DNA from: Pseudomonadota bacterium
Lineage (GTDB): Bacteria; Pseudomonadota; Gammaproteobacteria; Burkholderiales; Burkholderiaceae_C
DNA length: 64,000 nucleotides
Assembly: GCA_018241225.1 (NCBI GenBank)
Contig: JAFEEG010000027.1
Span: 23,690-87,689, forward strand
Reading direction: 5' to 3'
Positions 31,229 to 52,133 of this stretch are shown in pieces (position 1 is the stretch's first letter; every line of letters starts with the position of its first letter). Under the pieces are notes generated by a model, which did not search any database, had not been told where the DNA came from, and saw only the letters and a program-made list of their open reading frames with translations. The position numbers and the translations under genes were made by a program.

Positions 31229-31639
31229 CTACGACGGCGACTGAGATCGGAGATGGCGGCGCTCCAGCGTTGGCTGTACCTGGGGCAGGCACCCCTGCCC
31301 GCGCAGCGTAGCCTCCACCGCTTCGTCCAGCGGCGTGTGCGGCTCATGGCCCAGCACCGACAGCAGCCGGTCGTTGGCCAGGCGAACCTCCGTGTCCCAC
31401 AGGTAGCGCATCTCCAGCAGTTCGCGAGGCAGGGCGGAGAACCATGACGCGACGCGGATGAGACCCCATTGAAACGGCACCAGTCTGGGACGGCGAAGTC
31501 CATGCCGCTGCACCACGCGCTGGATGGCTTCGCCCATGGCCCGGCCGTCGTTGTCCACGTGCCCGGCCATGTGAAAGCTCGCGAAGGCCGGAAGGCTTTC
31601 TCTGCGAGCGAGCAGTTCCACCATCGTGCGGGCCACGTC
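31229..31639 (-). pseudogene. 3' half of an SDR/epimerase gene split by the Tn3-family transposon
   Basis: Encodes PDVARTMVELLARRESLPA, then HMAGHVDNDGRAMGEAIQ and LRRPRLVPFQWGLIRVASW to TAG at 31229: the C-terminal half of an extended NAD(P)-dependent epimerase-like protein. Its 5' half is at 43930-44543. Removing the transposon and one copy of the ACGTC duplication restores YLPDVARTM in frame. It has no start of its own here; the frame runs into the transposon end. Confidence 0.88.
31635..31639. repeat. Left target-site duplication of the transposon
   Basis: ACGTC, identical to 43930-43934. Five-base duplications are characteristic of Tn3-family transposition. Confidence 0.9.
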
Positions 31640-31680
31640 AGGGTAGTTGTACTTTTCGTGCAGATTGGTGCGCTTTGCCC
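31640..31680 (+). repeat. Left terminal inverted repeat of the transposon
   Basis: Begins AGGGTAGTTGTACTTTTCGT and continues GCAGATTGGTGCG. The inverse of the right end begins GGGGTAGTCGTACTTTTCTT then GCAGATTGGTGCG; about 30 of the first 33 bases match. Tn3-family ends typically start GGGG. Confidence 0.9.
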
Positions 31681-31723
31681 TAAAAAAACATGGCACGACA
31701 AGCACTTACGAAATCGCCTGCGC

Positions 31724-31764
31724 GGGCTATGGCATCCTTTTCGTGCAGTTTGGTACGCTTTGAC
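31724..31764 (+). repeat. Internal relic of a transposon end
   Basis: CCTTTTCGTGCAGTTTGGTA then CGCTTTGACC closely resembles the internal part of the left terminal repeat (CTTTTCGTGCAGATTGG, CGCTTTGCCC), in the same orientation, 85 bp inside. It suggests that an older left end was overtaken by a later one. Confidence 0.65.
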
Positions 31765-31776
31765 CGGGCGGCTCCT

Positions 31777-31853
31777 CATCCTCTGCGTACTGCGAACGCT
31801 GCATCCTTCTGTCGGGCTCGCTTGACCTCATCGCCGTGCAAGTAGATCGATGT
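31777..31853 (-). pseudogene. Tail of a tyrosine recombinase, copy 1
   Basis: The reverse strand encodes TSIYLHGDEVKRARQKDAA followed by FAVRRG and a stop. This is the C-terminus of the full recombinase at 32527-34239 (TSIYLHSDEVKRARQMDAA FAM), including the nucleophilic Tyr. The rest of the gene is absent. It belongs to a diverged paralogue, not to a recent copy. Confidence 0.8.
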
Positions 31854-31875
31854 GCGCATGAACGGGCGCAATGCT

Positions 31876-32295
31876 TTATTGGCCCTTCAACTGCTTGATC
31901 CGAGCGAGATTCATCTCGATGGTCACTCGGTACGAGGCAAGGCCGCCGCCATTTCCGGAACCATAGGAGGCCAACACACGATTGCTCTCGGCGGTCCGGA
32001 ACGCCCGGTATGTGCGCTCGGCCTTGTCGAAGGCCTTAACGGGATGCATCGACAGGCTGCCTTCGCTTTCGTTCTCTAGGTCGACCATGGCAGCTCGCTG
32101 CTTCTTCTCAGCCGCGACAAGTTCGACCTCCGATTGCTTTGCCACTACCGGATAGCATTCGCGCTGCTCGGCAGTCGATTGTTTGGTTTCGCACTGCTTG
32201 TAAAGTGCCTCAGTGGACTCAGCAGCCATCGACGTCCGTGTACCCATTGCAGCAAACACGAACCCCGCCGCAACATGGATTGCGTTGATCTTCAT
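31876..32295 (-). CDS. Exported LprI/DUF1311-like protein
   Basis: 139 residues from ATG 32295, with AGGAAAGGG just upstream. A signal peptide ends near SMAAES. The mature part has CETKQSTAEQRECYPVVA and the two-Cys helical layout of DUF1311/LprI-like proteins, some of which inhibit lysozyme. A periplasmic envelope-protection role fits stress cargo but is inferred. It sits between a recombinase tail and the full recombinase, on the same strand. Confidence 0.65.
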   Translation of the reverse strand: MKINAIHVAAGFVFAAMGTRTSMAAESTEALYKQCETKQSTAEQRECYPVVAKQSEVELVAAEKKQRAAMVDLENESEGSLSMHPVKAFDKAERTYRAFRTAESNRVLASYGSGNGGGLASYRVTIEMNLARIKQLKGQ

Positions 32296-32526
32296 TTTTC
32301 CCTTTCCTGGTTGTTGACGAAACCTGCATACGTCATGATTCGCGCCCGCCGTTGATTGGCCGCAGCTGGCCGCGCGCGACGCCTCCGGCACTGAGAACGA
32401 ATAGCGCCCGAGCACGTTGATGCCCGTGGCTTGCAGTAAGTCGGTTGGTTGTTCCACTGCTCCCCGGGCCCGGTTTTCAGACGAGTACCCGCCTTCCTCC
32501 GATTGCGCGCGAGGGAGTCTTCCCTG

Positions 32527-34239
32527 CTATCGCGCAATCGGCATGGCGAACGCTGCATCCATCTGCCGAGCCCGCTTGACCTCATCGCTGTGCAGGTAGA
32601 TCGAGGTCGTCGACACCGAGGCATGCCGCAGGTTGTCCCGCACGGTGGTGAGCTCGGCGCCGCGCGCGAGCGCATGGGTAGCATGGGTGTGTCTCATCCA
32701 GTGCGGGCTGGCACGCCTGAGCTTTTCCGCCGTGGCCGGAGCGTCCTTCTCAATGACCTCGGCCACCTTGATGAAGAAGCGCCGCATGACGGCCCACAGT
32801 CGCGTGGCCGTGATGCCCGCGGTGCTGTCTTGTTCGAGACTCCCGACGAGCGGCGTTTTCGGATCCCATCGTGCCGGCGTGAGCGGCAGCTGGCGCTGCA
32901 TCAGATACTGGTCAAGCGCCGCGCGCGCCAACGGCGGCAGCGCCACCTTGCCCGCCTTGCTGCCCTTGCCCACCAGGTGCAGCCAGTGATCGCCGTGCGC
33001 ATCCACCTCGATCTGACCCAGCGTGGCGCCGACCAATTCGCCGATGCGCAGGCCGGTGGCATAGGCGAAGTCGAGCACAAAGCGCAGTCGCTGCGCCGCC
33101 GACGCCTGCCAGCCATGGCCCCACTCGAGTCCTTGGCCCACTGCCTGGATCACCGCCCACTCGCCCTCGCCGAAGACCCGGGTGGCTGCCAGCGGCTCCG
33201 TGCGCGAAGCGCCGCGCACCTTGATGCCTGCGAACGGGTTGGCCAGCAGATAGCGCTGCTGGATGAGCCAACGGTACATCGCGCCCAGTACCGAGAGCGC
33301 ATAGGCGATGGATCGTGCCGAAAGCCCTCCCGCGAAGGGCCGCCATTCCGGGGAGGAGCGAGGGCAAGGTGGTCCGATCCATCGTGAACTCGGCGTCGGG
33401 CGGCGCAGGAACGCCCGATAGGCCACAGCATCCTCCGTCGTGAGCGACGACAGTGCCCGACCGCGCTCGACCACGGCCCAGAGGATCAATCGCTCGGCCT
33501 CCTTGCGGTACGCGCGCTGGGTGGCGGCGGACTCGTGCAGCGAAAGCCAGGCCTGAATCGCCTCGTAGTCGTTGTTTGCGTCCAGCGTGGAGGTCGCGGC
33601 GGGTGCGCGGAACGTTCCACGCGAACCGTCCACCTCGTGCGGCACATAGAGCCGTTCCCAAGGCACGACGTCGCGCTGGGCGCCGGTGGGCACCAGCGCG
33701 CGGGCGCTGGCGGTGAGTTGCGGGTGCGCCGCGAAGAAGGCCTCGACCTGCCTGGCGCCGGTGGCGCCCAGGCCCGCAATGCCGGTCCACCAGCGGCGCC
33801 GGCGCGGGATGCGCACGGTGAGTTCCGCCAGGGTCTTGAGGCCATGGGCCTTGATGGCCCCGGCGATACGCGCGGGCAGCCAGCGCTCGACGTCGTCCGT
33901 CACCTGGGGCACGGGCACCGCCAGATGCCGCAGGGTTTCGATCGCCTCCAGGACCGAGCGCGAACGCTCTGTGCGCTCGCGCGCGGGATGCCCGATCAGC
34001 GTGGTCAGATCCTCTCGGTGCCGGGCCTGCGCGTAGCGGGCAAGTTGTCGGCGGATCTCGCCGAGCATGGCGCGCGAGGACTGCCCCGTTGCCTTGTCCT
34101 GCCCGAGGTACTGCGCGACGGCCGCGCGTGCGTCCAGGCCCGCATACCAGGCACGCAGCGCCGCAAGCGCGTCGGCGCGGGGGAATTCCCCCTCCGACCT
34201 TCTTGTCCTGGCCGTGCTGGGGTTCGGGCTACTTTTCAT
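32527..34239 (-). CDS. Tyrosine recombinase with an N-terminal DUF3701-like domain
   Basis: 570 residues. The N-terminal about 200 residues match the helix-hairpin type domain (DUF3701) found on some phage-type integrases (LKTLAELTVRI, GIAGLGATGARQVEAFF). A SAM-like core-binding domain follows (about 230-330) and then the catalytic domain: Arg in YATGLRIGELVG, Lys in GKGSKAGKV, H-x2-R in HWMRHTHATHAL, and HASVSTTSIYLH with the Tyr nucleophile. All catalytic residues are present. Probably the cointegrate resolution recombinase of the transposon, comparable to TnpI of Tn4430, as a dif-like core site lies 27 bp from its start. Confidence 0.88.
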   Translation of the reverse strand: MKSSPNPSTARTRRSEGEFPRADALAALRAWYAGLDARAAVAQYLGQDKATGQSSRAMLGEIRRQLARYAQARHREDLTTLIGHPARERTERSRSVLEAIETLRHLAVPVPQVTDDVERWLPARIAGAIKAHGLKTLAELTVRIPRRRRWWTGIAGLGATGARQVEAFFAAHPQLTASARALVPTGAQRDVVPWERLYVPHEVDGSRGTFRAPAATSTLDANNDYEAIQAWLSLHESAATQRAYRKEAERLILWAVVERGRALSSLTTEDAVAYRAFLRRPTPSSRWIGPPCPRSSPEWRPFAGGLSARSIAYALSVLGAMYRWLIQQRYLLANPFAGIKVRGASRTEPLAATRVFGEGEWAVIQAVGQGLEWGHGWQASAAQRLRFVLDFAYATGLRIGELVGATLGQIEVDAHGDHWLHLVGKGSKAGKVALPPLARAALDQYLMQRQLPLTPARWDPKTPLVGSLEQDSTAGITATRLWAVMRRFFIKVAEVIEKDAPATAEKLRRASPHWMRHTHATHALARGAELTTVRDNLRHASVSTTSIYLHSDEVKRARQMDAAFAMPIAR

Positions 34240-34265
34240 GCTGCCAGTTTAGATGATTGATTCGT

Positions 34266-34295
34266 CTATTGCGATAAGAAGGATTATCTGAATAG
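34266..34295. other. Candidate recombination core site (12-6-12) next to the recombinase
   Basis: CTATTGCGATAA at 34266-34277, spacer GAAGGA, TTATCTGAATAG at 34284-34295. The arms are inverted with 10 of 12 positions matching, the classical layout of tyrosine recombinase core sites. It lies 27 bp before the recombinase start and within about 20 bp of the cargo boundary. Confidence 0.6.
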
Positions 34296-34309
34296 CTCGC
34301 CTCATCACT

Positions 34310-34670
34310 GTGGCTTCGGCGGGCATGGGCGCTATGTTGGACTTCGCCAGGAACGGGCAGGCGGAGCAGAAGCAATCGGACCTGCGTGATACCGAGCATC
34401 AGGTCGGGACGGAGGTTGTAAAGGCGCACGCCGATGCCGCGTCGGCGCTGGACAACATGGAGGCCTCGCAAAGGCTTCTGGGCGCCGCCCAAGCCGCGCT
34501 GGCGTCGGTCCAACGCAAATACGACCAGGGCGTGCTGGAGATGCTGAGCACGCAGAAGCGCACTGGCGGATGCAAAGCAGGAGCGCATCCGGTGCCTGGC
34601 GGACTGGCGCTCCGCCAAGTTGCGGCCGCTCGCGGCGGCAGGAGCCCTGGGTCGGCAGGAGGCGCAATAG
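34310..34670 (+). pseudogene. 3' remnant of a TolC/NodT-type outer-membrane efflux protein
   Basis: The first frame encodes RDTEHQVGTEVVKAHADAAS and AAQAALASVQRKYDQGVLEM with LSTQ; the next frame continues ALADAKQERIRCLADWRSA KLRPLAAAGALG to TAG 34670. Together this is the end of an outer-membrane factor (periplasmic coiled-coil hairpin and the last strand). A frameshift near 34555 and the missing 5' end make it non-functional. It begins right beside the recombinase core site. Confidence 0.7.
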
Positions 34671-34718
34671 CGCTCATGGCGCGCGTACCGTTCGCATGGG
34701 AAATGGGGGTGTCCCTGA

Positions 34719-35302
<584 letters not shown>

Positions 35303-35490
35303 AGAGGGCATTGCGGCCAACCTTGGCTGGTCACAGATAGCCGCAAAGACGCATCGCAGTAAATCGGCTTCGGCGCCGTGATCCTGCCGGGCCTCGGTAT
35401 CTTCAGTGGGTGCTGCGCACCGCAGATCCGTTACTGCGGGCGCGGTCCATGTGCGGCAACCCGGCCATCAAGAGATCACGGTTCGGGCCT

Positions 35491-35519
35491 CTTGAATCCG
35501 CGCGAGCCGCTCCTAAATC
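35491..35519 (+). promoter_or_regulatory. Possible heat-shock promoter before hsp20
   Basis: CTTGAA at 35491-35496 matches the sigma-32 -35 core; after a 13-bp spacer, GCTCCTAAAT is a poor match to CCCCATnT. It is 66-94 bp before the first hsp20 start. Suggestive only. The rest of 35303-35584 shows no gene. Confidence 0.25.
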
Positions 35520-35584
35520 CTCACCGGAAGCGCCTTGTCCGTCTGCGGCGCTTCCACCTGGTTCAACCATATGGAGGTTTCGCC

Positions 35585-36022
35585 ATGTATCGATCCTTGT
35601 TTCCGCGCGATCTGTTCGCCGAGGTGGATCGCCTGCAACGCGAAATGCAGCAGGCCTTCGATCTGTCTCCAAGCATCCGAGGGCTCGGCCGGGGCGGTTT
35701 CCCGGCCCTGAACGTCGGCGGCACACCGCAAACCGTGGAGATCTACGCCTTCGCGCCGGGCCTGGACCCGGCCACGCTGGATCTCCAACTCGACCGCGGC
35801 CTGCTGACCATTTCTGGCGAGCGGCCCTCGGCGCTGCCCGAGGAGGATGCGTCTTCGACCGTCCACATCAACGAGCGCTTCTCCGGCAGCTTCCGCCGCA
35901 TGCTGACGTTGCCCGAAGACGCGGATCCGGACGCGATCAAGGCTGACTACCGCGACGGCATCGTCCACATCACCGTCCAGCGGCGCGCCTCGGCGCAGCC
36001 GCGCCGCATCACCATCCAATGA
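35585..36022 (+). CDS. Small heat-shock protein Hsp20
   Basis: 145 residues. The start MYRSLFPRDLFAEVDRLQRE is an amphipathic N-arm. The alpha-crystallin domain (about 45-140) shows VEIYAFAPGLDPATLDL, LLTISGERP and the A-x-x-x-(D/N)-G-V/I-L end block as ADYRDGIVHITV. The C-terminus PRRITIQ contains the I-x-I type docking motif. An ATP-independent holdase. ATG 35585 has GGAGG upstream. Operon with the next hsp20 gene, 15 bp apart. Confidence 0.92.
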   Translation: MYRSLFPRDLFAEVDRLQREMQQAFDLSPSIRGLGRGGFPALNVGGTPQTVEIYAFAPGLDPATLDLQLDRGLLTISGERPSALPEEDASSTVHINERFSGSFRRMLTLPEDADPDAIKADYRDGIVHITVQRRASAQPRRITIQ

Positions 36023-36037
36023 GGAAAGGAGAGCGAA

Positions 36038-36442
36038 ATGAACGAAGTCGACACCGCCCGTGCACGCGCACCCTCCGAGAGCGACCGCAAGAGCCCGGCG
36101 AGCTATGTTGAAGCCGCACTGACCCCTCCGGTCGACGTCGTCGAGGACGGCACCGGCATCACGCTGTACGCCGACTTGCCCGGCGTGTCAAAGGACAACC
36201 TGCACCTGCACGTCGAGTCCGACACGTTGAGCATCGAGGCCGAGTCCGGCCTGAGCGTGCCCGAAGGGCTGCAGTCCAGCCATACGGAGGTCGCCCTGGC
36301 GCGTTTCCGCCGCGTCTTCACGCTGAGCAAGGAACTGGACACCGAGAAGGTGTCGGCCGAGATCAAGCACGGCGTGCTGAAGCTGCATATCCCGAAGGTG
36401 GAACAGGCCAAGCCGCGACGCATCGAGGTCAAGGCCGGCTAG
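36038..36442 (+). CDS. Small heat-shock protein Hsp20
   Basis: 134 residues from ATG 36038 with AAGGAGAG upstream. The alpha-crystallin domain covers about 27-134: PVDVVEDGTGITLYADLPG, LSIEAESGL and AEIKHGVLKLHIPKVEQ. It differs in the N-arm from its neighbour (residue-rich in Ser, Arg and Glu), so the pair probably form different oligomers. Such hsp20 pairs are common in transmissible heat-tolerance loci. Followed by a GC-rich hairpin. Confidence 0.92.
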   Translation: MNEVDTARARAPSESDRKSPASYVEAALTPPVDVVEDGTGITLYADLPGVSKDNLHLHVESDTLSIEAESGLSVPEGLQSSHTEVALARFRRVFTLSKELDTEKVSAEIKHGVLKLHIPKVEQAKPRRIEVKAG

Positions 36443-36464
36443 GGATGGTCTTATATGGGCGCCT

Positions 36465-36486
36465 CCCCGGCCAGAATGGGCCGGGG
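36465..36486 (+). terminator. Hairpin after the hsp20 pair
   Basis: CCCCGGCC - AGAATG - GGCCGGGG: an 8-bp perfect stem, 23 bp after the second hsp20 stop. There is no T tract, so it may be a weak terminator or an RNA-stabilising hairpin. Confidence 0.5.
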
Positions 36487-36536
36487 AAGGGTGCAGCGAG
36501 TGAGCTGGCATAAATAAACCGAGCGAGGAACACGAG

Positions 36537-36740
36537 ATGAAAGAAGCGGGCGAGATCAGTCGCCTCGTTTACCTTGGCTCGGAGATCTGCATATGCCTTG
36601 ATGAACTCACGAGTGAAGGCCAGACCACCGGCCACGCAGATCTCTGGCACGAGGGCGAACACAGATGCCGCATCGCCCTGACCGGCCGTGCTGTCGCGGG
36701 GCGCCCTCCTGAATTTCGGTGCCGCATGAAGGCGGGGTGA
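36537..36740 (+). CDS. Small hypothetical gene running into an internal transposon end
   Basis: 67 residues from ATG 36537 with GAGGAACACGAG upstream: MKEAGEISRLVYLGSEICIC, then GHADLWHEGEHRCRIALTG. The last codons and the stop (GCG GGG TGA) lie inside the internal inverted repeat that starts at 36734, so the native C-terminus was probably lost when that end arrived. Family not recognised; two His and three Cys in the middle. Confidence 0.5.
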   Translation: MKEAGEISRLVYLGSEICICLDELTSEGQTTGHADLWHEGEHRCRIALTGRAVAGRPPEFRCRMKAG

Positions 36741-36771
36741 TCGTCCGTTTCGTCCAGTTTGGTGCTTTGCC
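36734..36771 (+). repeat. Internal Tn3-type inverted repeat before secA
   Basis: GGGGTGATCGTCCGTTTCGT then CCAGTTTGGTGCTTTGCC, alignable with the terminal repeats (GGGGTAGTCGTACTTTTCTT, GCAGATTGGTGCG) with about 70 percent identity and the same orientation as the left end. With the right end at 43929 it would delimit a 7.2-kb element holding secA and tnpA. Its flank AAGGC does not match the right flank. Confidence 0.7.
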
Positions 36772-37109
36772 TTCCCGGTGCGGGGCCCCGGGGTGACTTC
36801 GGTTCGGCGTGATTCGGCCTGGTGAAGCCTGGCCGTTCCCGAACCGGCGTCGTACCTGACGATGGCGGCCGAGCAGGCCATGTTCGGCGCCGTCGCCCGC
36901 GGCGGCGTCGCACCCGCTGACCTCGGGCCGCGGCAGCGCGGGAGCGCTTGCCGCAGTGCGGCGTCAGCCTCAAGCCCGCAGCCCGGCGCAGGCGCGCCCG
37001 TAGGCTAAACCCGCGGCCCTTGTGCCGGCCTGCCGAGCCACCGTTGAAACGCAGCTCTCCGCCCTTACGTAGCGCTGGCACCTCAAGACCCGCCACCCGC
37101 GGACGCTGC
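36772..37109. other. Leader region of secA; no gene seen
   Basis: 338 bp, very GC-rich, between the internal repeat and secA. Frames here are open but have no ribosome sites or protein-like sequence. The promoter of secA must lie here or in the repeat; no clear -35/-10 pair was found. Confidence 0.4.
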
Positions 37110-39866
<2,757 letters not shown>

Positions 39867-39892
39867 AGGCCCTCAAGAAGCGGAATTTTTGC

Positions 39893-39945
39893 AGGTAGAT
39901 CGAGCTCGTCGACAGCGATGCATGGCCCACCGGTCGAATGACAAA
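39893..39945 (-). pseudogene. Tail of a tyrosine recombinase, copy 2
   Basis: The reverse strand encodes RPVGHASLSTSSIYLQ, matching the Tyr-containing end (LRHASVSTTSIYLH) of the recombinase at 32527-34239. It starts only 27 bp after the secA stop, so secA is flanked on this side by a recombinase end. The sequence is diverged from both other copies. Confidence 0.65.
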
Positions 39946-39946
39946 C

Positions 39947-39997
39947 GAGCTCCGCCATGAGCCGCTCGCACTGACCCGTCACGCGGCGGCGGAGCTC
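39947..39997. repeat. 10-bp inverted repeat near the recombinase tail
   Basis: GAGCTCCGCC at 39947-39956 and GGCGGAGCTC at 39988-39997, perfect, spacer 31 nt. Position beside the recombinase tail suggests a former recombination or regulatory site; function unknown. Confidence 0.4.
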
Positions 39998-40022
39998 ATT
40001 GCAACGAGTGCTCGTCACTGCT

Positions 40023-40262
40023 TCAATGAATCGCGGCCGACCCAACCGTCGCCCAGACATCCACCTTGGCTTTGGCCAAGATGCGCAATCGATCGCGCAC
40101 CTCCTTGGAGCGCCTTCGGGCACTCCCGAGAGAAATCCGGCCCTTGAACTCGTTCTTCTCGAAGAGATCGGCGTGACCGAAGACGCGGGCGCCAGCCCTT
40201 TGGACTTTGATCGCGATGGCGACGTCGCGGTAGACGATCGGATCCGAGGAGGCTTGTCGCAT
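40023..40262 (-). CDS. Small hypothetical protein of the transposon
   Basis: 79 residues, basic. It has an excellent ribosome site (GGAGGTGAAAC) before ATG 40262. The sequence IVYRDVAIAIKVQRAGARVF and KVDVWATVGSAAIH is not recognised as a family. Second gene of a two-gene unit with 40266-40586 (3-bp gap), on the same strand and downstream of tnpA. Confidence 0.55.
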   Translation of the reverse strand: MRQASSDPIVYRDVAIAIKVQRAGARVFGHADLFEKNEFKGRISLGSARRRSKEVRDRLRILAKAKVDVWATVGSAAIH

Positions 40263-40265
40263 GTT

Positions 40266-40586
40266 TCACCTCCATCCCGTCTCACGACGCGTATTGACTT
40301 TCGCATTCAGCTTGGCTTTCCACCAGGACGCGCGTGCGGGCTGCACTGGAGGCGCGTCTCCGGGCAGCGAAAACTTTGCCAGTTCTTCACGGCCCTTTTC
40401 CGTGATCGCCAGCACCTGGGCCGCATCAGTCGTGCCCGAAAGCGTCAACGCATTTGACGGTGTGGGCGTGAGCGCGATCACCAGACCCGCAGCGCGCAGA
40501 AGCTTGATCTTGTCGATCTCCTCTGAAGTGCGGAAGGTGGCTGGCAATGACGAGCCAGCAAGCTGTCTGAGCATGTCCATGGCCAT
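40266..40586 (-). CDS. Small hypothetical, possibly winged-helix, protein of the transposon
   Basis: 106 residues from ATG 40586, with AAGGAGG upstream. IDKIKLLRAAGLVIALTPTP followed by AQVLAITEKGREELAKF looks like the wing and recognition-helix pattern of a MarR/PadR-like winged helix, though this is only an impression. It may regulate itself and its 79-residue partner or the transposase. Located between tnpA and the secA cargo. Confidence 0.55.
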   Translation of the reverse strand: MAMDMLRQLAGSSLPATFRTSEEIDKIKLLRAAGLVIALTPTPSNALTLSGTTDAAQVLAITEKGREELAKFSLPGDAPPVQPARASWWKAKLNAKVNTRRETGWR

Positions 40587-40813
40587 TTTGGGGTCCTCCT
40601 TTCACGATGACCAAAGAGAGCGAAAGAGAAATAGCAGCGACAAGCCCGCACATCAAGAGGCCGGAAACCGACCGATAAGAACGTAGCGTTTTGTTGCCGA
40701 AACTTCATCTGACAAAGCCAATCCGCTGTCTGACGGAGTGGCATTTGGCGAGGCTGCGATTGATGGCCGACGCTGGGTTTTTCGGGCGAAGGGATGCGGC
40801 GATGTGAACATCC

Positions 40814-43771
40814 TCAAGTCTTTGACTGCGCGGCGAGTTGCTTAGTGACCGCGGGGCCGGGGCGAAGCAGAGCCTGGGCGTACTTGTCAATCCCAAACCT
40901 GAAGGTGCCCCGAAAGTTGATGTGCGAGAAGTGCGCCGGCCCAATGCGCCGCAGCCACTCATCTTCAATCCTCAAGCCTTCGCGCCTGAGCCGTTCGACG
41001 ACATCGTTCATGCGGTTTGTGTTCCAGGCCAACACGATATTCGTCAGCAGGGCGTGCGATCCCGAGATGGCACGCATCTCGTCGCGCCGCCGGCCGCGCT
41101 CGGCCGCCACCTTGCCGGAGTAGATCGCGCGCTGTAGCTGGTGGACCGACTCTCCGCGGTTCAGAAGCGTGTGGATCTCGCGCCGGAAGTCTTCGATCGC
41201 AATGTAGTCGCACAGGAAGACGGTGCGCAGCAGTTGGCCCAGGTGCTCGGCGGCGCGGTGGAGCCGATCGCCCTGAGCGGCTGAACCGAATCGTTGCAGA
41301 GCCAGCGACGCCGACACGCGTCCGGACCGGATCGATGCGGCGAGTCGCAACAATTCATCCCAGCCGCGTTCGATGGTTGTCAGTGACACGCATCGCACGG
41401 AAACGGCCTCCAGCCCTTCAGGCTCCGTAAACACCCGCGGCAGGTAGAGCTTGCGCTCGGCCAAATCTCGCAACCGCGGGCACAGATCGAAGCCCAGCAA
41501 CTTGGCGACGGCCATTGCCACGTTGGTATACCCGTGGGTATCGACCGCCAGCAGCGACAAGCGGATGCGTTCCTCGGTTCTTTCTTGGTTGTGCTGTTCG
41601 ACACCTTCGATCGCCGCGCCGGCCTGCCGTTCGTTGAGCACGATGGGCTGGTCGTACACGATGCCCCAGCGGTCGCGCACATGGGTGTAGATCCCGGCCG
41701 CGTAAGTTCGCCGGCGGGGATCTACGCGGGCGTTCCAAAGGTGCCTGGAAGCATCGAGCGACATCATGTCCGCCGACGCCTTGTCGCCGTCGCCCCAAAG
41801 CGCCGCTATCGGGATTCGACTTTGAAACTCGGCAACGCTCTGGTTGGCCCTGCGCAGCCGCCCGCTGGCCTCAAGCGCCCGCATCGCTACCGAAATCTGA
41901 GCGTGCTCGAGTCCGGGGATCATCGAAGCTACCCCCTTGGCGTCAAGGTCGGTGCCGTGGGCGAGCAGCGCGCCGTACAGTGCCATGAGCTCGTTGGTCG
42001 TTTGCGCTCGGTGGCCAAGTAAAGCTTCGCTGTAGTTGGTGGCGGCGTCCAGTTCGAGCATCAGGTCGGGGAGCTGAACAGGCCCGATGAGCTTGTAGAT
42101 GGTCTCGCGTGTGCGAATCGGTTCGGTCTGATCGCCCAGCGCCGCAATGGCCGGCAGGTGCAGCATTCCATCGGCGCCAATCTCGGCCTTACCCAAGCGC
42201 ACCGCCTCGGCTACGGCCGACATGCCAGCAACCAGGTTGGCCAGCAGCGGCTCCAGGAACTTGCGCGCTGTCTTGGGCATCCCGAGCAGGTCAACATGTT
42301 GATCGCGCTGTGTTGCCCAATCGGCAGGCGGAATCAGCATCTGATCGCGTTCCCGGTAGCTGAGCGAGTGGTCGATCCAGACACTTCCACGGCGCAGGCT
42401 CTTGCGCAGCGACATCATCGTGGAGGCTTCGAATGCCCGAAAGCCGGAGCGCGGGTCCAGGTCATGGACGAGGCCGTGCCAAGCGGCACCGACGTCCGGG
42501 AGTTGTGTGTCTTCTTCGAGCTCAACCGCACCTCGACGCTGCAGTTCCTGCCAGGCCTTCCACTGCTCGAAACCGGCGTCGCCGTCGCAGCCGTTGAAGT
42601 CCAGGTCCTTCAGAGCCGCAAGGCTGGCGTGAACCCGTTGGGCATCTTCGGCCAGCGCCTTTCGCACTTGCGAGACGAAACTGCCCGTGGCGGACTCGCC
42701 CAGTCCGGCGAGGATCTGGCGGGCTTCGAGCACACGGGTCTGCCAGGACGTGGTCTCGTCGTGCAGGATCGCCTTGGCCTTGATCGCCTGCTGCAACAGC
42801 GCCGCAGAGTTGCGCGTGCGTCCGACCTGTGCTCGGTCGGCGGCTTCGCGGAACAACTGCTGGCTTCTGCGGCTGGATTGCTGCAGCGCGACGTCGGTAA
42901 GTTCAAGCAGAGTTGCCCGAAGGAAGCACACCAGTTCGATTGTTTGCCGAGTGGCCTTGATTTCACGCGTCTTGATCGGGCGGCGCATCTGTACTTGCCG
43001 GGCGTAGGCCTGTTGCTTGGCGAGCGCCACGTCGGCCAGGTCCCACTCGTGCGCACCGAGTGATTTGAGAAAGCGGACTTTTTCGAGGGTATCGGCGAGC
43101 GTGCCTGGGCCGTGTCGCTTGGGCGGCGTCTTGAGCCAGTCGAGGTAAGTGGCTTCAGTGCCTGGGCGGTTGCTGTAGGCCGATTCGATGAGGTGTTGCG
43201 CCCTGGCGGGTGGCACTGCCGCATTGATCGCATCGAGGATCCGCGCCTCGACAGCGGCGAACGAATCGCGCGCCCAATCCTGCAGGCGCCGCCCGCCGGG
43301 GATGAGAATTCGACGCGCGAAAAGCCACTGGCGCGCGGACTGGGCCAAATCGTCCGGGTGCGAAGACTCTTCGGCCTGCACCCGAAGGGTGTCTATCAGC
43401 TCAGCCTCATCCGCAGGCTGCAAATCACGTAGGCCCAGATACGTCTTTGCCCATAACTGATGCTTGTAGAGGGTCTGGCTGCGCTTGTAGATCGAACGCA
43501 GACTGGCAATCGATGGCGGCGAGGTGCCAAGCGCCTGCGCGGTGTACCTCAGCAGGTTGCGCGGCAGCACGTTGAAGCCGTCCAACGGCCGGCCGGCGAC
43601 ACGCATGAACATCACCATCAGCGCGGCGGGCAGGCGGTGGTCGCTGCGGAACTGCTCCCGGATCGCAGCAAGGTCAGCGGACGACAGCTCGAAGAACTGC
43701 TCGCGATCGAACTCGCTCAGGCGAGCGGGAAGGCTCTCCTGGCCAACGAAGCGCAGGGCGAATGCAGGCAT
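40814..43771 (-). CDS. tnpA: Tn3-family transposase
   Basis: 985 residues, full length for TnpA. Features are the N-terminal DUF4158-type DNA-binding part (RFVGQESLPARLSEFDRE, RLPAALMVMFMRVAGRP), and the DDE catalytic domain in the second half with ALWGDGDKASADMMSLDA, LLAVDTHGYTNVAMAVAK, and the conserved end block LNRGESVHQLQRAIYSGKVA plus VLAWNTNRMNDVV. No frameshift. It starts 158 bp from the right transposon end and reads inward. The transposase binds the terminal repeats and makes cointegrates. Confidence 0.95.
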   Translation of the reverse strand: MPAFALRFVGQESLPARLSEFDREQFFELSSADLAAIREQFRSDHRLPAALMVMFMRVAGRPLDGFNVLPRNLLRYTAQALGTSPPSIASLRSIYKRSQTLYKHQLWAKTYLGLRDLQPADEAELIDTLRVQAEESSHPDDLAQSARQWLFARRILIPGGRRLQDWARDSFAAVEARILDAINAAVPPARAQHLIESAYSNRPGTEATYLDWLKTPPKRHGPGTLADTLEKVRFLKSLGAHEWDLADVALAKQQAYARQVQMRRPIKTREIKATRQTIELVCFLRATLLELTDVALQQSSRRSQQLFREAADRAQVGRTRNSAALLQQAIKAKAILHDETTSWQTRVLEARQILAGLGESATGSFVSQVRKALAEDAQRVHASLAALKDLDFNGCDGDAGFEQWKAWQELQRRGAVELEEDTQLPDVGAAWHGLVHDLDPRSGFRAFEASTMMSLRKSLRRGSVWIDHSLSYRERDQMLIPPADWATQRDQHVDLLGMPKTARKFLEPLLANLVAGMSAVAEAVRLGKAEIGADGMLHLPAIAALGDQTEPIRTRETIYKLIGPVQLPDLMLELDAATNYSEALLGHRAQTTNELMALYGALLAHGTDLDAKGVASMIPGLEHAQISVAMRALEASGRLRRANQSVAEFQSRIPIAALWGDGDKASADMMSLDASRHLWNARVDPRRRTYAAGIYTHVRDRWGIVYDQPIVLNERQAGAAIEGVEQHNQERTEERIRLSLLAVDTHGYTNVAMAVAKLLGFDLCPRLRDLAERKLYLPRVFTEPEGLEAVSVRCVSLTTIERGWDELLRLAASIRSGRVSASLALQRFGSAAQGDRLHRAAEHLGQLLRTVFLCDYIAIEDFRREIHTLLNRGESVHQLQRAIYSGKVAAERGRRRDEMRAISGSHALLTNIVLAWNTNRMNDVVERLRREGLRIEDEWLRRIGPAHFSHINFRGTFRFGIDKYAQALLRPGPAVTKQLAAQSKT

Positions 43772-43820
43772 GGCCGGCGGGTATGTCGTGGAGGTGCGAA
43801 TGTACCTTCCAGACCATCGT

Positions 43821-43838
43821 CGTGACCATTAGGTCACG
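43821..43838. promoter_or_regulatory. Inverted repeat upstream of tnpA
   Basis: CGTGACC - ATTA - GGTCACG: perfect 7-bp arms, 50 bp upstream of the tnpA start and 51 bp from the terminal repeat. A plausible operator for tnpA. Confidence 0.5.
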
Positions 43839-43888
43839 TCTTTCAGGTGCTTGTTTGCCTGCGTAACCCGCATGGATTCTGGGTCTCA

Positions 43889-43929
43889 GGCGAAAACGCA
43901 CCAATCTGCAAGAAAAGTACGACTACCCC
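43889..43929 (-). repeat. Right terminal inverted repeat of the transposon
   Basis: Reading inward from 43929 on the minus strand it begins GGGGTAGTCGTACTTTTCTT and continues GCAGATTGGTGCG, matching the left end at 31640. Confidence 0.92.
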
Positions 43930-43934
43930 ACGTC
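43930..43934. repeat. Right target-site duplication of the transposon
   Basis: ACGTC, identical to 31635-31639. Confidence 0.9.
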
Positions 43935-44543
43935 GGGCAGGTATCCCCACTGATGCGGCACGCCCGGACGGCCCGGCAGGTAGACCTTGTCGACGGGCTT
44001 CCCGGGCTTCACCAGCGCCTGCGAGAACCAGTTGTTGCCGGCGCGCGGACCGAAGAAGTCGCCGCAGCTGACAACGATGGCACGGCAGCCGGCTTGCGTT
44101 GCTTCTTTGAGGGTCTTCTCCATCTCCACGCGGATGCGCCCCTTGCGGGTTTGGGCGTTCTGCGGTGAATCCTCGCGCGCCACCGGAAATGCATCCGGCC
44201 CGTAGTTGTAGACGTTGCCCGGAAGGACGACGGTGGCCCCGTGCGCCTGCGCGGCCGCCAACGTGCTGCGCAGCATGGGCAGCACAAGCTGGGCCCATTG
44301 CTGGTAGCCGGGTGGGTTGACCGCATGCACGATGACTGAACAACCCCGCGCGGCGGCCGCCACATCCCCTGGGTTCATCGCGTCGCCTCGCACCCAGCTC
44401 GTCCCCTGGCGGTATTCGCCCGCCGGGTTGGCGTCACGATGCAGGGCCCGCACCTCCCAGCCGGCCCCGGCCAGTTGACGCGTCACTTCTCCCCCGATTC
44501 CGCCGGTAGCCCCCAGCACCAGAACCGTCTTGTTGTTGCTCAT
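43930..44543 (-). pseudogene. 5' half of the SDR/epimerase gene split by the transposon
   Basis: Starts at ATG 44543 (CAAAAGGAGCTGAGC upstream). The Rossmann start KTVLVLGATGGIGGEVTRQL, VNPPGYQQWAQLVLPML and NVYNYGP with a Tyr-based active site are those of extended SDR/NmrA-epimerase proteins. The coding frame ends at PDVG followed by a stop inside the transposon end. The continuation is at 31229-31639. It is divergent from the LysR gene at 44637, which probably controlled it. Confidence 0.88.
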
Positions 44544-44636: not shown

Positions 44637-45524
44637 ATGACTTCGACCGTCGGCTGGGAACTCTATCGCTCCTTCCTAGGGGTGCTCGACGAGGGCTCGC
44701 TGTCTGGCGCATCGCGGGCGCTCGACATTACCCAGCCCACGGTGGGGCGGCATGTCGGCGCGCTGGAGACGGCGCTCGAGGTGGTGCTGTTCACCCGATC
44801 GCAAACGGGCTTTCTGCCCACCGAGGCCGCGCGCAGCCTGGAACCGCATGCGCGCGCCATGGCCGTGGCCGCGGCCGCCCTGGAACGTGCCGCGCAAGGG
44901 CAGGGGGCCGGAATCGTCGGTACGGTGCGCGTCACGGCCAGCGAGATGCTGGGCGTCGAAGTCCTGCCTCCCATCCTGGCACGCCTGCAGGACGAGCACC
45001 CTGGCCTTCGCATCGAGCTGTCTTTGTCGGATCGCGTCCAGAACCTGTTGGCGCGAGAGTCCGACATTGCGGTGCGCGGGTTCCGCCCGGACCAGGAACA
45101 GCTTGTCGTCCAGCGGGTCGGCGAGGTGCAACTGGGCCTGCATGCATCGAAGGAGTACCTCGCGCGCCATGGGACGCCCAAGACCGTCGCGGACCTGCGC
45201 CCGCACCGGCTCGTCGGATTCGACGCCGACACACCCTACCTTCGCCAGGCCCGCAAGGACTTCCCCATGTGGCGGCGCGAAGCCTTCGCGGTGCGCTGCG
45301 ACAGCGACTGCGCACAGCTGTCGATGCTGCGCGCCGGCGGCGGCATCGGCATCTGCCAGGTGCCGCTGGCACGCAGTCATGGCCTTCGAAGGGTGCTGCC
45401 CGAAGTGAATGTTCCGCTGCCTATGTGGCTGGCCATGCACGAGGACCTTCGGTCGAGCCCCCGATGCCGGGCCACGTACGAGGCACTGGCTGTTGGACTG
45501 CGGAAGTACTGCGGCCGAGATTAG
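44637..45524 (+). CDS. LysR-family regulator
   Basis: 295 residues. The winged helix is at 5-65 (GSLSGASRALDITQPTVGRH VGALE); the effector domain follows from about 90 with the two-lobed periplasmic-binding fold (VLPPILARLQDEHPGLRIEL). Divergent from the split SDR gene, with 93 bp between, containing ATACAT-TT-ATGCAT-like dyad sequence close to the start. It is likely an orphan regulator now that its target is interrupted. Confidence 0.9.
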   Translation: MTSTVGWELYRSFLGVLDEGSLSGASRALDITQPTVGRHVGALETALEVVLFTRSQTGFLPTEAARSLEPHARAMAVAAAALERAAQGQGAGIVGTVRVTASEMLGVEVLPPILARLQDEHPGLRIELSLSDRVQNLLARESDIAVRGFRPDQEQLVVQRVGEVQLGLHASKEYLARHGTPKTVADLRPHRLVGFDADTPYLRQARKDFPMWRREAFAVRCDSDCAQLSMLRAGGGIGICQVPLARSHGLRRVLPEVNVPLPMWLAMHEDLRSSPRCRATYEALAVGLRKYCGRD

Positions 45525-49166: not shown

Positions 49167-49371
49167 ACACGTGCGCTCCAAGGCAGCGTTAGTGGAGAAG
49201 GAACTGCACTGACCGGGAATGGCACCGGCGATGGCTATTTCGGGGTAAACCTGCTGACCAGTGATCCTTCGGTCGCATTCACCTTGGTAGACAGCGGTTG
49301 CACTGCGAAGGGCAACGTGGCGCCGCGCGGCAATCGGGGCAGGTGCGGGTGGGTGCGTATTTCGGCCTATC

Positions 49372-49512
49372 GTGACCGCTGATTTCGGCATCGTGACCGG
49401 TCATTCCGGCCCATCGTGACCGATCGTCGTTTCGGGCCTTCGTGACCGACCGTTTCGGTGACGTGACCGGCCATTTCGGCATCGTGACCGCCCGTTTCGG
49501 CGATCGTGACCG
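49372..49512 (+). repeat. Left-end multiple transposase-binding repeats of the IS21 element
   Basis: Seven copies of GTGACCG (49372, 49393, 49416, 49442, 49463, 49484, 49506), alternating with TTTCGG-like motifs at a period of about 21-26 bp. IS21 elements have such end repeats, though seven is many. Confidence 0.85.
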
Positions 49513-49585
49513 CCGGCGGTGATGCGTGGAGAACTCAACCCCTGGGCCCTCGTAGCCTCGGCGGCTTTGCCGTCGAAGGAGCGGG

Positions 49586-51109
49586 ATGCCCAAGCAACGA
49601 ATTTCTCTATCCATGATCAAGGATGTCATCCGCCTGAAGTGGCACGCCAATCTCTCCCACGAGCAGATCGCCACCACCCTGAAGCTCTCCAAGGGCGTCG
49701 TCGCCAAGTACGTCAGCTTGGCCACCGTTGCCGGCCTGGACTGGGAGACCGTCCAGCACTGGAGCGAATTGCAACTGTCGAACGTGCTGCTTCCCCGCTC
49801 CGCCACCTCGCAGCCTTTCGTCGAACCCGACTGGGGTCGCATCCATCAGGAGCTCGACCGCAAGGGCATGACGCTCATGCTCCTGTGGCAGGAGTACGTG
49901 GCCGCCCACCCCGAGGGGCGCACCTGGCGCTACACGCAGTTCTGCGAACACTACAAGGCGTTCGCCCGCACGCTCAAGCGCTCGATGCGGCAGCACCGGC
50001 GCGCCGGCGAGAAGCTGTTCATCGACTTCGCCGGCCCCACTGTGCCTCTCACCGACGGCGCTCGCGCCCAGGTGTTCGTCTCGGCCATGGCCGCCTCCAG
50101 CCATGTCTTCGCCTGCGCCACCCCGGCGCAGCGCCTGGACGACTGGATCGACTGCATGGTGCGTGCGCTGCACTTCTACGGCGGTGTGCCGCAGTTGATC
50201 GTGCCGGACAACGCACGTGCGGTCATTGCATCGCCCGACCGCTATGAGCCCCGCGCCAACGACACGGTACTCGACTTCGCCCGCTACTACGGTTGCTCGG
50301 TACTTGCTGCCCGCCCACGAACGCCCAAGGACAAGGCCGCCGCAGAATCTTCGGTTCAAGTAGTCACTCGCTGGGTGCTGGCGCGCCTTCGCCATCGGCG
50401 CTTCGACAGCGTCTCCCAGGTCGACGCCGCCATCACAGAATTGCTGCCCAACGTGAACGACCGGCCGTTCCAGAAGCTGCCCGGCAGCCGGGCCAGTGTC
50501 TTCGCCGAGCTGGATGCACCGGCACTGATGACGTTGCCGCGGCAACCCTACGAACTCGCCCGGTTCAAGACGGTGAAGGTCCACATCGACTACCACGTCG
50601 AATTGGAAGCTCACCGCTACAGCGTGCCCCACGCGCTCGTCGGCCAGACCCTGCAGGCGCGGCTCACCCGACACGGCGTGGAGTTGCTGCTGCGTGGTCA
50701 GCGCGTGGCAGCCCACGCCCGTAACGAGCGCCGCGGCGGCTACACCACGGTGGAGGCTCACATGCCCGCGGCCCACCGCGCCCACCTGGAGTGGACGCCA
50801 CAGCGGTTGATCGAGTGGGGGCAACGCATTGGCGTGGCCTGCGGCGAACTCATCACCCGGCTGCTGCAGACGTACAAGCACCCCGAGCACGGCTACCGGT
50901 CCTGCCTGGGGCTGCTGAACCTGTCGCGCCGATATGGCGAGGCACGGCTGGAGTCGGCCTGCGAACGGGCCCTCGCGCTGGGCGCCTTCCGCTACCGCCA
51001 TGTGCGCGATCTGCTGGCCAACAACCGCGACCAGCTCCCGCTGGACGCCGACACCGAATGGACCAGTCCGACGCACGCCAATCTGCGCGGACCGGGCTAC
51101 TACCAATGA
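49586..51109 (+). CDS. istA: IS21 transposase IstA
   Basis: 507 residues. N-terminal helix-turn-helix (ISLSMIKDVIRLKWHANLS, HEQIATTLKLSKG), then a DDE integrase core: FIDFAGPTVPLTDG with the first Asp, PDNARAVIAS with the second, and a Glu in KDKAAAESSVQVV. A C-terminal beta domain binds DNA. The stop overlaps the istB start (ATGA), the typical coupling in IS21. The start ATG 49586 lies 74 bp after the last end repeat. Confidence 0.94.
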   Translation: MPKQRISLSMIKDVIRLKWHANLSHEQIATTLKLSKGVVAKYVSLATVAGLDWETVQHWSELQLSNVLLPRSATSQPFVEPDWGRIHQELDRKGMTLMLLWQEYVAAHPEGRTWRYTQFCEHYKAFARTLKRSMRQHRRAGEKLFIDFAGPTVPLTDGARAQVFVSAMAASSHVFACATPAQRLDDWIDCMVRALHFYGGVPQLIVPDNARAVIASPDRYEPRANDTVLDFARYYGCSVLAARPRTPKDKAAAESSVQVVTRWVLARLRHRRFDSVSQVDAAITELLPNVNDRPFQKLPGSRASVFAELDAPALMTLPRQPYELARFKTVKVHIDYHVELEAHRYSVPHALVGQTLQARLTRHGVELLLRGQRVAAHARNERRGGYTTVEAHMPAAHRAHLEWTPQRLIEWGQRIGVACGELITRLLQTYKHPEHGYRSCLGLLNLSRRYGEARLESACERALALGAFRYRHVRDLLANNRDQLPLDADTEWTSPTHANLRGPGYYQ

Positions 51110-51963
51110 GCAAGACCGACCTCAGCAGCCCAGAGCCAATCATGAACCCATCGAATTCACTGCACTCACACGCCATGCTCAACAACGCCACCCTCGCTCA
51201 ACTGCGCGCGCTCAAGTTGCAAGGCTTCGCCGACGCCTTGCAACAGCAACACGAACAGGCCGACTGCCTGAGCCTGTCGTTCGACGAGCGGCTGGCCCTG
51301 CTGGTGGAACGCGAGGTCTATGCCCGAGGCGACCGCAAGCGTGCTCGGCTGCTGCAGCGTGCCCAGTTGAAGTACGCCACTGCCACGCTGGAGGACGCCA
51401 GCTTCCAGGGCGTGCGTGGCATCGATAGATCTGCCCTGATGGGCGTCGCTCTGTCGACCTGGATCGAGCGCGGCGAGACGCTCACCTTCTCCGGTGCCAC
51501 GGGGCTGGGCAAGACGTGGCTGGCCTGCGCGTTGGCCCAGTACGCATGTCGCCAGGGGCACTCGGCGCTGTACTTGCGGGTGCCGCGTCTGGCCGAGGAG
51601 CTTCGCATCCTGCACGGCGCTGGCACCTTCCGACGTTGGCTCGAGCAGCTTGCCAAGGTCGACGTGTTGATCCTGGACGATTGGGGAACGGGTCCGATGG
51701 ACAGCGTCACCCGGAGTGACCTGCTGGAGGTCGTTGATGACCGGGTGGGCCACCGCGCGACGATCATTACGCACCAACTTCCAATCGAGCACTGGCACGC
51801 CTGGCTGGGCGACGCCACGATCGCCGACGCCATCCTTGACCGGTTGATGCAAAGCTGCCGGCGCTTCAACTTGGAGGGTGAATCTCGTCGCACGGGCAAG
51901 ACCGCACGGCCCGCCGCCAAGCCAACAAAGACAGTTCAGGAGGAGGGGCAACCGATGACCTGA
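51106..51963 (+). CDS. istB: IS21 ATP-binding helper protein IstB
   Basis: 285 residues. Walker A SGATGLGKTWLACAL at about 123-137, Walker B DVLILDDWGTG near 186, and the arginine-finger region in the C-terminal half, as in the DnaC-like AAA+ family. IstB regulates target choice and forms a complex with IstA. ATG 51106 overlaps the istA stop. The C-terminal tail (RTGKTARPAAKPTKTV) is basic. Confidence 0.94.
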   Translation: MSKTDLSSPEPIMNPSNSLHSHAMLNNATLAQLRALKLQGFADALQQQHEQADCLSLSFDERLALLVEREVYARGDRKRARLLQRAQLKYATATLEDASFQGVRGIDRSALMGVALSTWIERGETLTFSGATGLGKTWLACALAQYACRQGHSALYLRVPRLAEELRILHGAGTFRRWLEQLAKVDVLILDDWGTGPMDSVTRSDLLEVVDDRVGHRATIITHQLPIEHWHAWLGDATIADAILDRLMQSCRRFNLEGESRRTGKTARPAAKPTKTVQEEGQPMT

Positions 51964-52020
51964 TCAACCACCTCGATACCCCTAAACTCTGACCTCTGCG
52001 CAGCACCGCCATCAGCATGG

Positions 52021-52133
52021 CGGTCACGATCAACGAAACGCGTGGTCACGTTGCCGAAATGACGCCGACTTCAGCCCTCGGCACGTCGGTCACGATGGAC
52101 CGAAATGGGCGGTCACGCTGGCCGAAATACGCA
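52021..52133 (-). repeat. Right-end transposase-binding repeats of the IS21 element
   Basis: Four GGTCAC copies (near 52022, 52044, 52088, 52111), the inverse of the left-end GTGACC motif, interspersed with CCGAAA. Confidence 0.8.

Follow-up and report, generated by a model that had tools for sequence, protein, structure and literature searches.

A complete 12.3-kb Tn3-family transposon with a Tn4401-type resolvase and a repeated inner IR half at one end splits an SDR/epimerase gene

Introduction

In transposons of the Tn3 family the tip of the inverted repeat (IR) is the place of cleavage, and a duplication of 5 bp of target is a criterion for membership of the family. Elements of the IS1071 type have IRs of 110 bp and lack a resolvase. 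In Tn4430 and Tn5401 a Tn3 transposase is combined with a tyrosine resolvase, and the core site lies before the resolvase gene (PMC7157771, accessible part of the text); their irs sites hold two extra direct repeats, and in Tn5401 a further TnpI site is located close to either end. The DUF3701 domain has been assigned to a 'TnpR' subgroup of tyrosine recombinases, together with Tn4401 (PMC8138268, as far as the text is accessible). In the accessible portions of the open literature searched, no resolution site is named for a Tn4401-type resolvase, and nothing is evident there on an inner copy of the IR in Tn3 ends. Mobile small heat-shock genes have been described for tLST, with the core genes dna-hsp20-clpG (PMC8290217, part of the text).

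Here, we analyse an element in a stretch of 64,000 nucleotides (the window, to which all positions refer). The element is very probably a complete Tn3-family transposon that inserted, presumably in replicative mode, in a gene for an SDR/epimerase, with a TnpA transposase, a DUF3701 recombinase for resolution and cargo between the two.

Results

The transposon occupies positions 31640-43929 (12,290 bp), or 31635-43934 with both target-site duplications. An earlier reading of the sequence alone had placed a 12.3-kb Tn3-family transposon at 31635-43934, and direct rereading and recomputation left these coordinates exact to the base. Both duplications read ACGTC (left, 31635-31639; right, 43930-43934). 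The left junction reads ...GGGCC ACGTC, followed by the transposon end AGGGTAGTTGTACTTTTCGTGCAGATTGGTGCG...; at the right junction the transposon end, read inward, is GGGGTAGTCGTACTTTTCTTGCAGATTGGTGCG..., with ACGTC outside. The terminal IRs, at 31640-31680 (forward strand, the end away from the tnpA start) and 43889-43929 (reverse strand, the tnpA side), pair over 41 nt at 88%, and BLAST aligned 36 nt at 92% (E 1e-6). The first base of the left IR is A instead of G, which may weaken this repeat. GTACGACTACCCCACGTC occurs once in the window, and in 100 shuffles no match with up to 3 mismatches turned up. Among the elements for which both ends were found, matching flanking 5 bases were seen (by eye) only in the window.

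The tnpA gene (40814-43771, reverse strand) codes for a Tn3-family DDE transposase of 985 aa, which matches the Tn3 models of Pfam and NCBIfam (E 1e-239 and 9e-116) and is alignable over residues 16-971 with the Tn4430 transposase. The family assignment of the earlier reading is thus borne out by a DDE transposase of about 1000 aa, IRs of at least 38-40 bp (here 41 nt) and 5-bp duplications. We consider it very improbable that a repeat-borne misjoin during assembly placed the transposon in the SDR gene. The window does come from a draft of 55 contigs, and transposons are frequent misjoin points; however, tnpA is single-copy in its own assembly, and the same 5-bp duplication is present at the exact IR ends on both joints, which no misjoin would yield. 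The insertion event itself is ordinary, of textbook kind.

Relatives of TnpA were found at 40 loci in one scan of genome contigs, mostly from Burkholderiales, with 39-84% identity in the best segment. At E 1e-100, matches were present in 12 of 61 genomes of the host genus, some of which are just 38-39% identical. The layout of IR, tnpA, cargo, recombinase and far IR is common to the window, L036, L039 and L107/L249; in L206, tnpA and the recombinase gene are divergent neighbours instead. The cargo of L036 includes a ParD/ParE pair beside tnpA, a TctC-type receptor, a LysR gene and a methyltransferase, and that of L107 a TPR protein. One whole contig of Piscinibacter sakaiensis 201-F6 (L039, 1-10991) consists of exactly one related transposon, IR to IR, which holds tnpA, other cargo, the recombinase and an inner IR copy. 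Six relatives (L038, L047, L048, L055, L060, L061) resemble IS1071-type elements, apparently with IRs and tnpA only in 3.2-3.4 kb. The window element differs from this type in having a resolvase and IRs of about 41 nt, and its TnpA is 38% identical to that of a copy annotated IS1071 in L127; membership of the IS1071 type was rejected on these three grounds.

The interrupted gene lies on the reverse strand on both sides of the transposon. Its N-terminal part is at 43930-44543 (ATG at 44543, right ACGTC included) and its C-terminal part at 31229-31639 (stop at 31229, left ACGTC included). The N-terminal part of 609 nt, or 203 codons, ends in codon phase 0 and runs on into the C-terminal part. 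The sequence-only reading had claimed that deletion of 31640-43929 plus one ACGTC restores the frame; upon recomputation, this deletion yielded a frame of 339 codons that begins with the ATG at 44543, ends at the stop at 31229 and has a phase 0 joint after codon 203. As it stands, the N-terminal part encodes 206 aa and then a stop, and the C-terminal part is without its own start, its frame extending upstream into the transposon end as far as a GTG at 31705. From this truncation we infer that the SDR function is lost. No second match to the N-terminal part was found in the own genome at E 1e-20. The SDR gene is patchy in the host genus, and its loss is therefore probably tolerated. Elsewhere in the window, at about 49354-52133, lies an IS21-type element with an IstB frame and an rve/Mu-type transposase frame, flanked by inverted arrays of repeated GTGACCG/TTTCGG motifs.

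The uninterrupted gene was sought in relatives by searching the N-terminal part alone in 61 genomes (threshold E 1e-20). Matches were obtained in 23. Apart from the own genome, these comprise 20 of the 36 other members of the genus and 2 of the 24 genomes from outside it. The N- and C-terminal parts are adjacent in all 22 loci of other genomes, and none of these carries the two halves as separate intact genes, the arrangement that would have spoken against a split gene. The alignment passes through the junction as one piece in 21 of the 22 loci, at 35-65% identity, and in L006 it is split 29 codons past the junction. In the multiple alignment, the 22 rows are all ungapped within 15 columns of the junction, so the reconstructed protein aligns over the joint, failure of which the earlier reading would have taken as refutation. 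The sequence around the junction is well conserved and reads mostly W(S/A)YLP|DVA. A LysR gene neighbours the SDR gene in 22 of 22 other loci (partial in L023), as it does in the window (44637-45524). In L022 the matched part has one internal stop. In L023 the first ~100 SDR codons are missing together with the start of the LysR gene (to about residue 187); the absence of both 5' ends points to a deletion or an assembly fault there. The empty site is seen between species, with one genome per species compared.

That the transposon merely happens to lie between two genes without relation to each other, or between the pieces of a gene disrupted in another way, can be given practically no credence. 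L006 does indicate that the SDR gene can also break by a small frame change, although nothing in the window favours such an origin; the phase 0 joint and the matching 5-bp duplication argue against unrelated flanking genes, as do the alignment through the joint and the LysR neighbour in all 22 loci.

A tyrosine recombinase of 570 aa with a DUF3701 domain, a Tn4401-TnpR-like resolvase, is encoded at 32527-34239 (reverse strand). Its domains are PF12482 (DUF3701, N-terminal, E 9e-25) and PF00589 (E 2e-17), and the protein shares 65.7% identity with entries annotated as Tn4401-family TnpR. Its Arg, Lys, His-x-x-Arg, His and Tyr residues align with XerD; we take this R-K-H-R-H-Y series to be the catalytic set of tyrosine recombinases. 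DUF3701 together with a catalytic domain carrying these residues places the protein in the DUF3701/Tn4401 TnpR subgroup. The likeness to Tn4401 consists of this identity and of a similar dyad (see below), and the comparison was made at these two features. In the window element, the recombinase gene is at the end away from the tnpA start, with the cargo in between, and the far end carries an inner IR copy. In Tn4430 and Tn5401, too, a Tn3 transposase goes together with a tyrosine resolvase whose gene is preceded by a core site, and the window was compared with their irs sites at the core dyad.

Alignment of the 5' sides of the recombinase loci revealed a 30-nt dyad of 12-6-12 form. In the window it lies at 34266-34295 (reverse strand), 26 nt before the recombinase start codon, and reads CTATTCAGATAA-TCCTTC-TTATCGCAATAG, with arms complementary at 10 of 12 positions. 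A matrix of 19 sites, made symmetric and used with a threshold of 9, gave 47 hits above 9 in 1.45 Mb of locus DNA (some being the same place in overlapping loci) versus 1 in a mononucleotide-shuffled copy. Seven of the 47 are situated elsewhere or next to a distant recombinase; L051 accounts for two of them and L101, L118, L119, L130 and L131 for one each, those of L101 and L131 being not far upstream of distant recombinases. A dyad above 9 was found at 28 of 33 recombinase genes, window included, and the first in-frame start follows it by 26-27 nt in 26 of these 28, the others being at 21 (L121) and 76 nt (L119). For the Tn4401-type tnpR that was compared (L202), the dyad scored 18.5 and the first in-frame start was 27 nt after it. 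L039 and L203 have a dyad below threshold in the same place, and none was seen at L120, L123 and the second gene of L117 among the 33 genes scanned. The scan is partly circular, as 19 of the 28 sites trained the matrix; when the training sites and the duplicate plasmid copy L127 are left out, 8 of 13 genes pass, 2 have a sub-threshold dyad in place and 3 have none. An integron-like array with several dyads was considered and rejected: no second strong site was present in the 29 sequences scanned, second-best scores being 13.0 (L118), 9.8 (L119), 9.5 (L130) and below 9 in the rest, versus 15-39 for most recombinase-side sites.

Comparison of closely related loci showed where their homology ends. 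From the dyad on, L110 and L111 share 98% identity over 5.4 kb; their left arms differ, and the ~9 kb upstream show no match. Their homology also stops after those 5.4 kb downstream. Breaks at the dyad were likewise found in L114/L115/L116 (92-93%) and L107/L126 (87%). On the tnpA side, L036 and L039 match over 3.9 kb at 83%; after different cargo, homology resumes (89%) from the dyad to the far end. L039 and L040 have about 130-180 nt more common sequence upstream of the dyad, which makes the break inexact for these two. In many pairs homology ends 50-80 nt after the Tyr codon, just past the recombinase gene, which means that the downstream side is variable too. That the homology of close pairs stops at the dyad or only a few bases from it suggests a crossover site of this recombinase family. 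The dyad would then form the crossover core for cointegrate resolution, and recombination there would swap transposon arms.

The nearly fixed spacing of 26-27 nt to the start codon would also fit an operator for autoregulation, and the characterised res/irs sites contain promoters as well (PMC7157771, accessible part of the text). An operator instead of a crossover site appears rather doubtful to us: an operator alone leaves the homology breaks at the dyad in related loci unexplained, and the 12-6-12 form fits the core of a tyrosine recombinase site. The dyad could also serve as both, as reported for TnpI. We therefore retain the dyad as the candidate crossover site.

At the end away from the tnpA start, the inner 26 nt of the IR, a presumed transposase box, occur a second time, at 31737-31762 (forward strand), 85 bp inside. 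The ends of related elements were collected as IR hits with at most 10 mismatches; the copies that duplicate one element (L127, L242, L243, L247, far end of L244), the inner copies themselves and the site at 36734 (see below) were left out. An inner copy was present at 14 of 14 far ends (window, L036, L038, L039, L047, L048, L055, L058, L060, L061, L107, L109, L126 and L129), with 16-25 of 26 matches and at 85 (11 ends), 86 (2) or 87 bp (1). The 26-nt consensus was drawn from such elements, so that the far ends are not independent of it, and the tnpA-side ends served as control. At the 25 tnpA-side ends, scanned from 70 to 100 bp inside, no inner copy was found at 85-87 bp; the best match in this range was 9-12 of 26 in 22 of them. 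In three Cupriavidus elements (L047, L060, L129) the tnpA side gave 15-16 of 26 at 99-100 bp, and these ends may also have an inner copy at another spacing.

Inner and outer copies of eight elements are 86% alike in the 26-nt part and 48% in the outer 12 nt. Compared from one element to the next, the outer 12 nt show 77% likeness in the outer copies versus 50% in the inner copies. Given cleavage at the IR tip, the lower conservation of the outer 12 nt makes the inner copy look like a transposase binding site that is bound without being cut. Tn5401 has its additional TnpI sites near both ends, whereas the additional motif of the window element is a copy of the IR, present at one end only, and thus presumably a site for the transposase. 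The presence of the inner copy at all 14 far ends suggests non-equivalent ends in these transposons.

The cargo between tnpA and the recombinase gene includes, on the forward strand, a complete second SecA of 920 aa (37104-39866) and two Hsp20 small heat-shock proteins (35378-36022 and 36038-36442). SecA is the ATPase that drives protein export and is essential. The true start of the first Hsp20 is probably further inside, since most relatives match from about residue 66. The frame at 34310-35227 (forward strand) matches OEP weakly (PF02321, E 0.0029, below the curated cut-off) and is perhaps a gene remnant. On the far-end side of the recombinase gene, an LprI-domain protein is encoded at 31876-32457 (reverse strand; PF07007, E 1.6e-7).

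The own genome holds another SecA elsewhere, 74% identical to the transposon SecA. More than one SecA match (E 1e-100) was found in 4 of 60 genomes of the genus with a match: the own genome, G008, G015 and G435, where one copy is split. Among 300 genomes of the order, the SecA nearest to it is that of G300, from another genus of the same family (84%, the single match there), and the best full-length match in other genomes of the host genus is 76%. DNA homology with the G300 locus is limited to the secA gene, the flanks being without any. The proximity to the G300 protein suggests that the transposon SecA, of housekeeping type, probably stems from a related genus. An accessory SecA2 was ruled out: the housekeeping SecA models of NCBIfam score best and above cut-offs, and the best match in the order is the sole SecA match of G300. 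The split second secA of G435 lies at about 9184-12029 of L196; in this 19.9-kb stretch, none of the window's Hsp20, recombinase and transposase genes had a match.

The Hsp20 cargo resembles that of tLST, which is also mobile. A tLST heat-resistance island was rejected, as no Clp-type match occurs in the frames of the element that were scanned and SecA is present instead. Side-by-side Hsp20 pairs are found in one Variovorax and one Comamonadaceae plasmid record, with no secA listed nearby in gene tables that are incomplete. A search of the open literature for this combination found no transposon with a complete extra SecA beside two small heat-shock genes. A DnaK-type gene and several Hsp20-like frames lie beside a DUF3701 recombinase gene and dyad in another family (L119, 4731-8934). 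Chaperone cargo beside such a recombinase is thus seen again in the sequence of L119. From the gene content, one might guess at a benefit of the cargo in protein-folding stress.

The cargo is flanked by two incomplete repeats of the recombinase gene's 3' end, both on the reverse strand. The first, at 39890-39929, reaches as far as the catalytic-Tyr codon (40 nt at 88%, 35 nt at 91%), and the second, at 31792-31853, runs from that codon on (89% over 62 nt); they meet within 14 nt at the catalytic-Tyr codon. The second is continuous with the transposon end, as is the intact recombinase gene in L107. Upstream of secA lies a degenerate third Tn3-type end (36734-36771, forward strand, 10 of 38 mismatches), presumed to be a remnant of a related element. 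In a control over 984,028 positions in 93 loci, with the two own-genome loci that contain the site excluded, no hit with 13 or fewer mismatches was obtained. Together, the half copies and the third IR indicate that the element was probably assembled from at least two related elements.

The half copies could be the left and right joints of a cargo captured by site-specific recombination at the recombinase 3' end. Their meeting within a 14-nt stretch at the catalytic-Tyr codon is in keeping with such a capture, as is the way in which the right half runs straight into the transposon end, like the recombinase gene that borders this end in L107. We nevertheless regard capture as unlikely. The supposed first recombinase gene lacks its body, and among the window and 25 loci tested, a repeat of the gene's own end at E <0.001 was found only in the window, L117 and L119 (hits of E 0.001 to 1 were taken as chance, and not all 25 loci hold a close recombinase); L117 has two recombinase genes, and the partial copy in L119 is not broken at that point.

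Discussion

The features described above can be combined in a scheme in which the transposon would insert replicatively between SDR codons 203 and 204 and thereby duplicate 5 bp of target. TnpA (40814-43771) would act on the two terminal repeats, and the DUF3701 tyrosine recombinase of Tn4401 TnpR type (32527-34239) would resolve the cointegrate; its most probable site of action is the 12-6-12 dyad that precedes its start codon by 26 nt. Activity of the element and its replicative mode are inferred from the sequence, as are the role of the dyad in crossover, that of the inner copy in transposase binding and any benefit of the cargo.

A wider proposal, which we put forward tentatively and hold to be nearly balanced with a lean towards doubt, is that in transposons with the DUF3701/Tn4401-type resolvase a common core CTATTNNGATAA-N6-TTATCNNAATAG serves as a docking port for the exchange of arms, and that the present branch of Tn3 transposases needs an asymmetric end with two boxes as well. 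With the core 26-27 nt before the resolvase start, the docking port would join arms holding tnpA and cargo to arms holding the resolvase and the end.

The split gene itself changes little; what could matter is the branch to which the element belongs. This is a little-described one, of Tn3 transposons with a Tn4401-type resolvase, unusual ends and a common motif that resembles a recombination site. For resolvases of this type, the dyad offers a resolution site that can be tested. If the inner copy is indeed a transposase box, the two boxes, 85 bp or about eight helical turns apart, would distinguish the ends of the transposon during replicative transposition.
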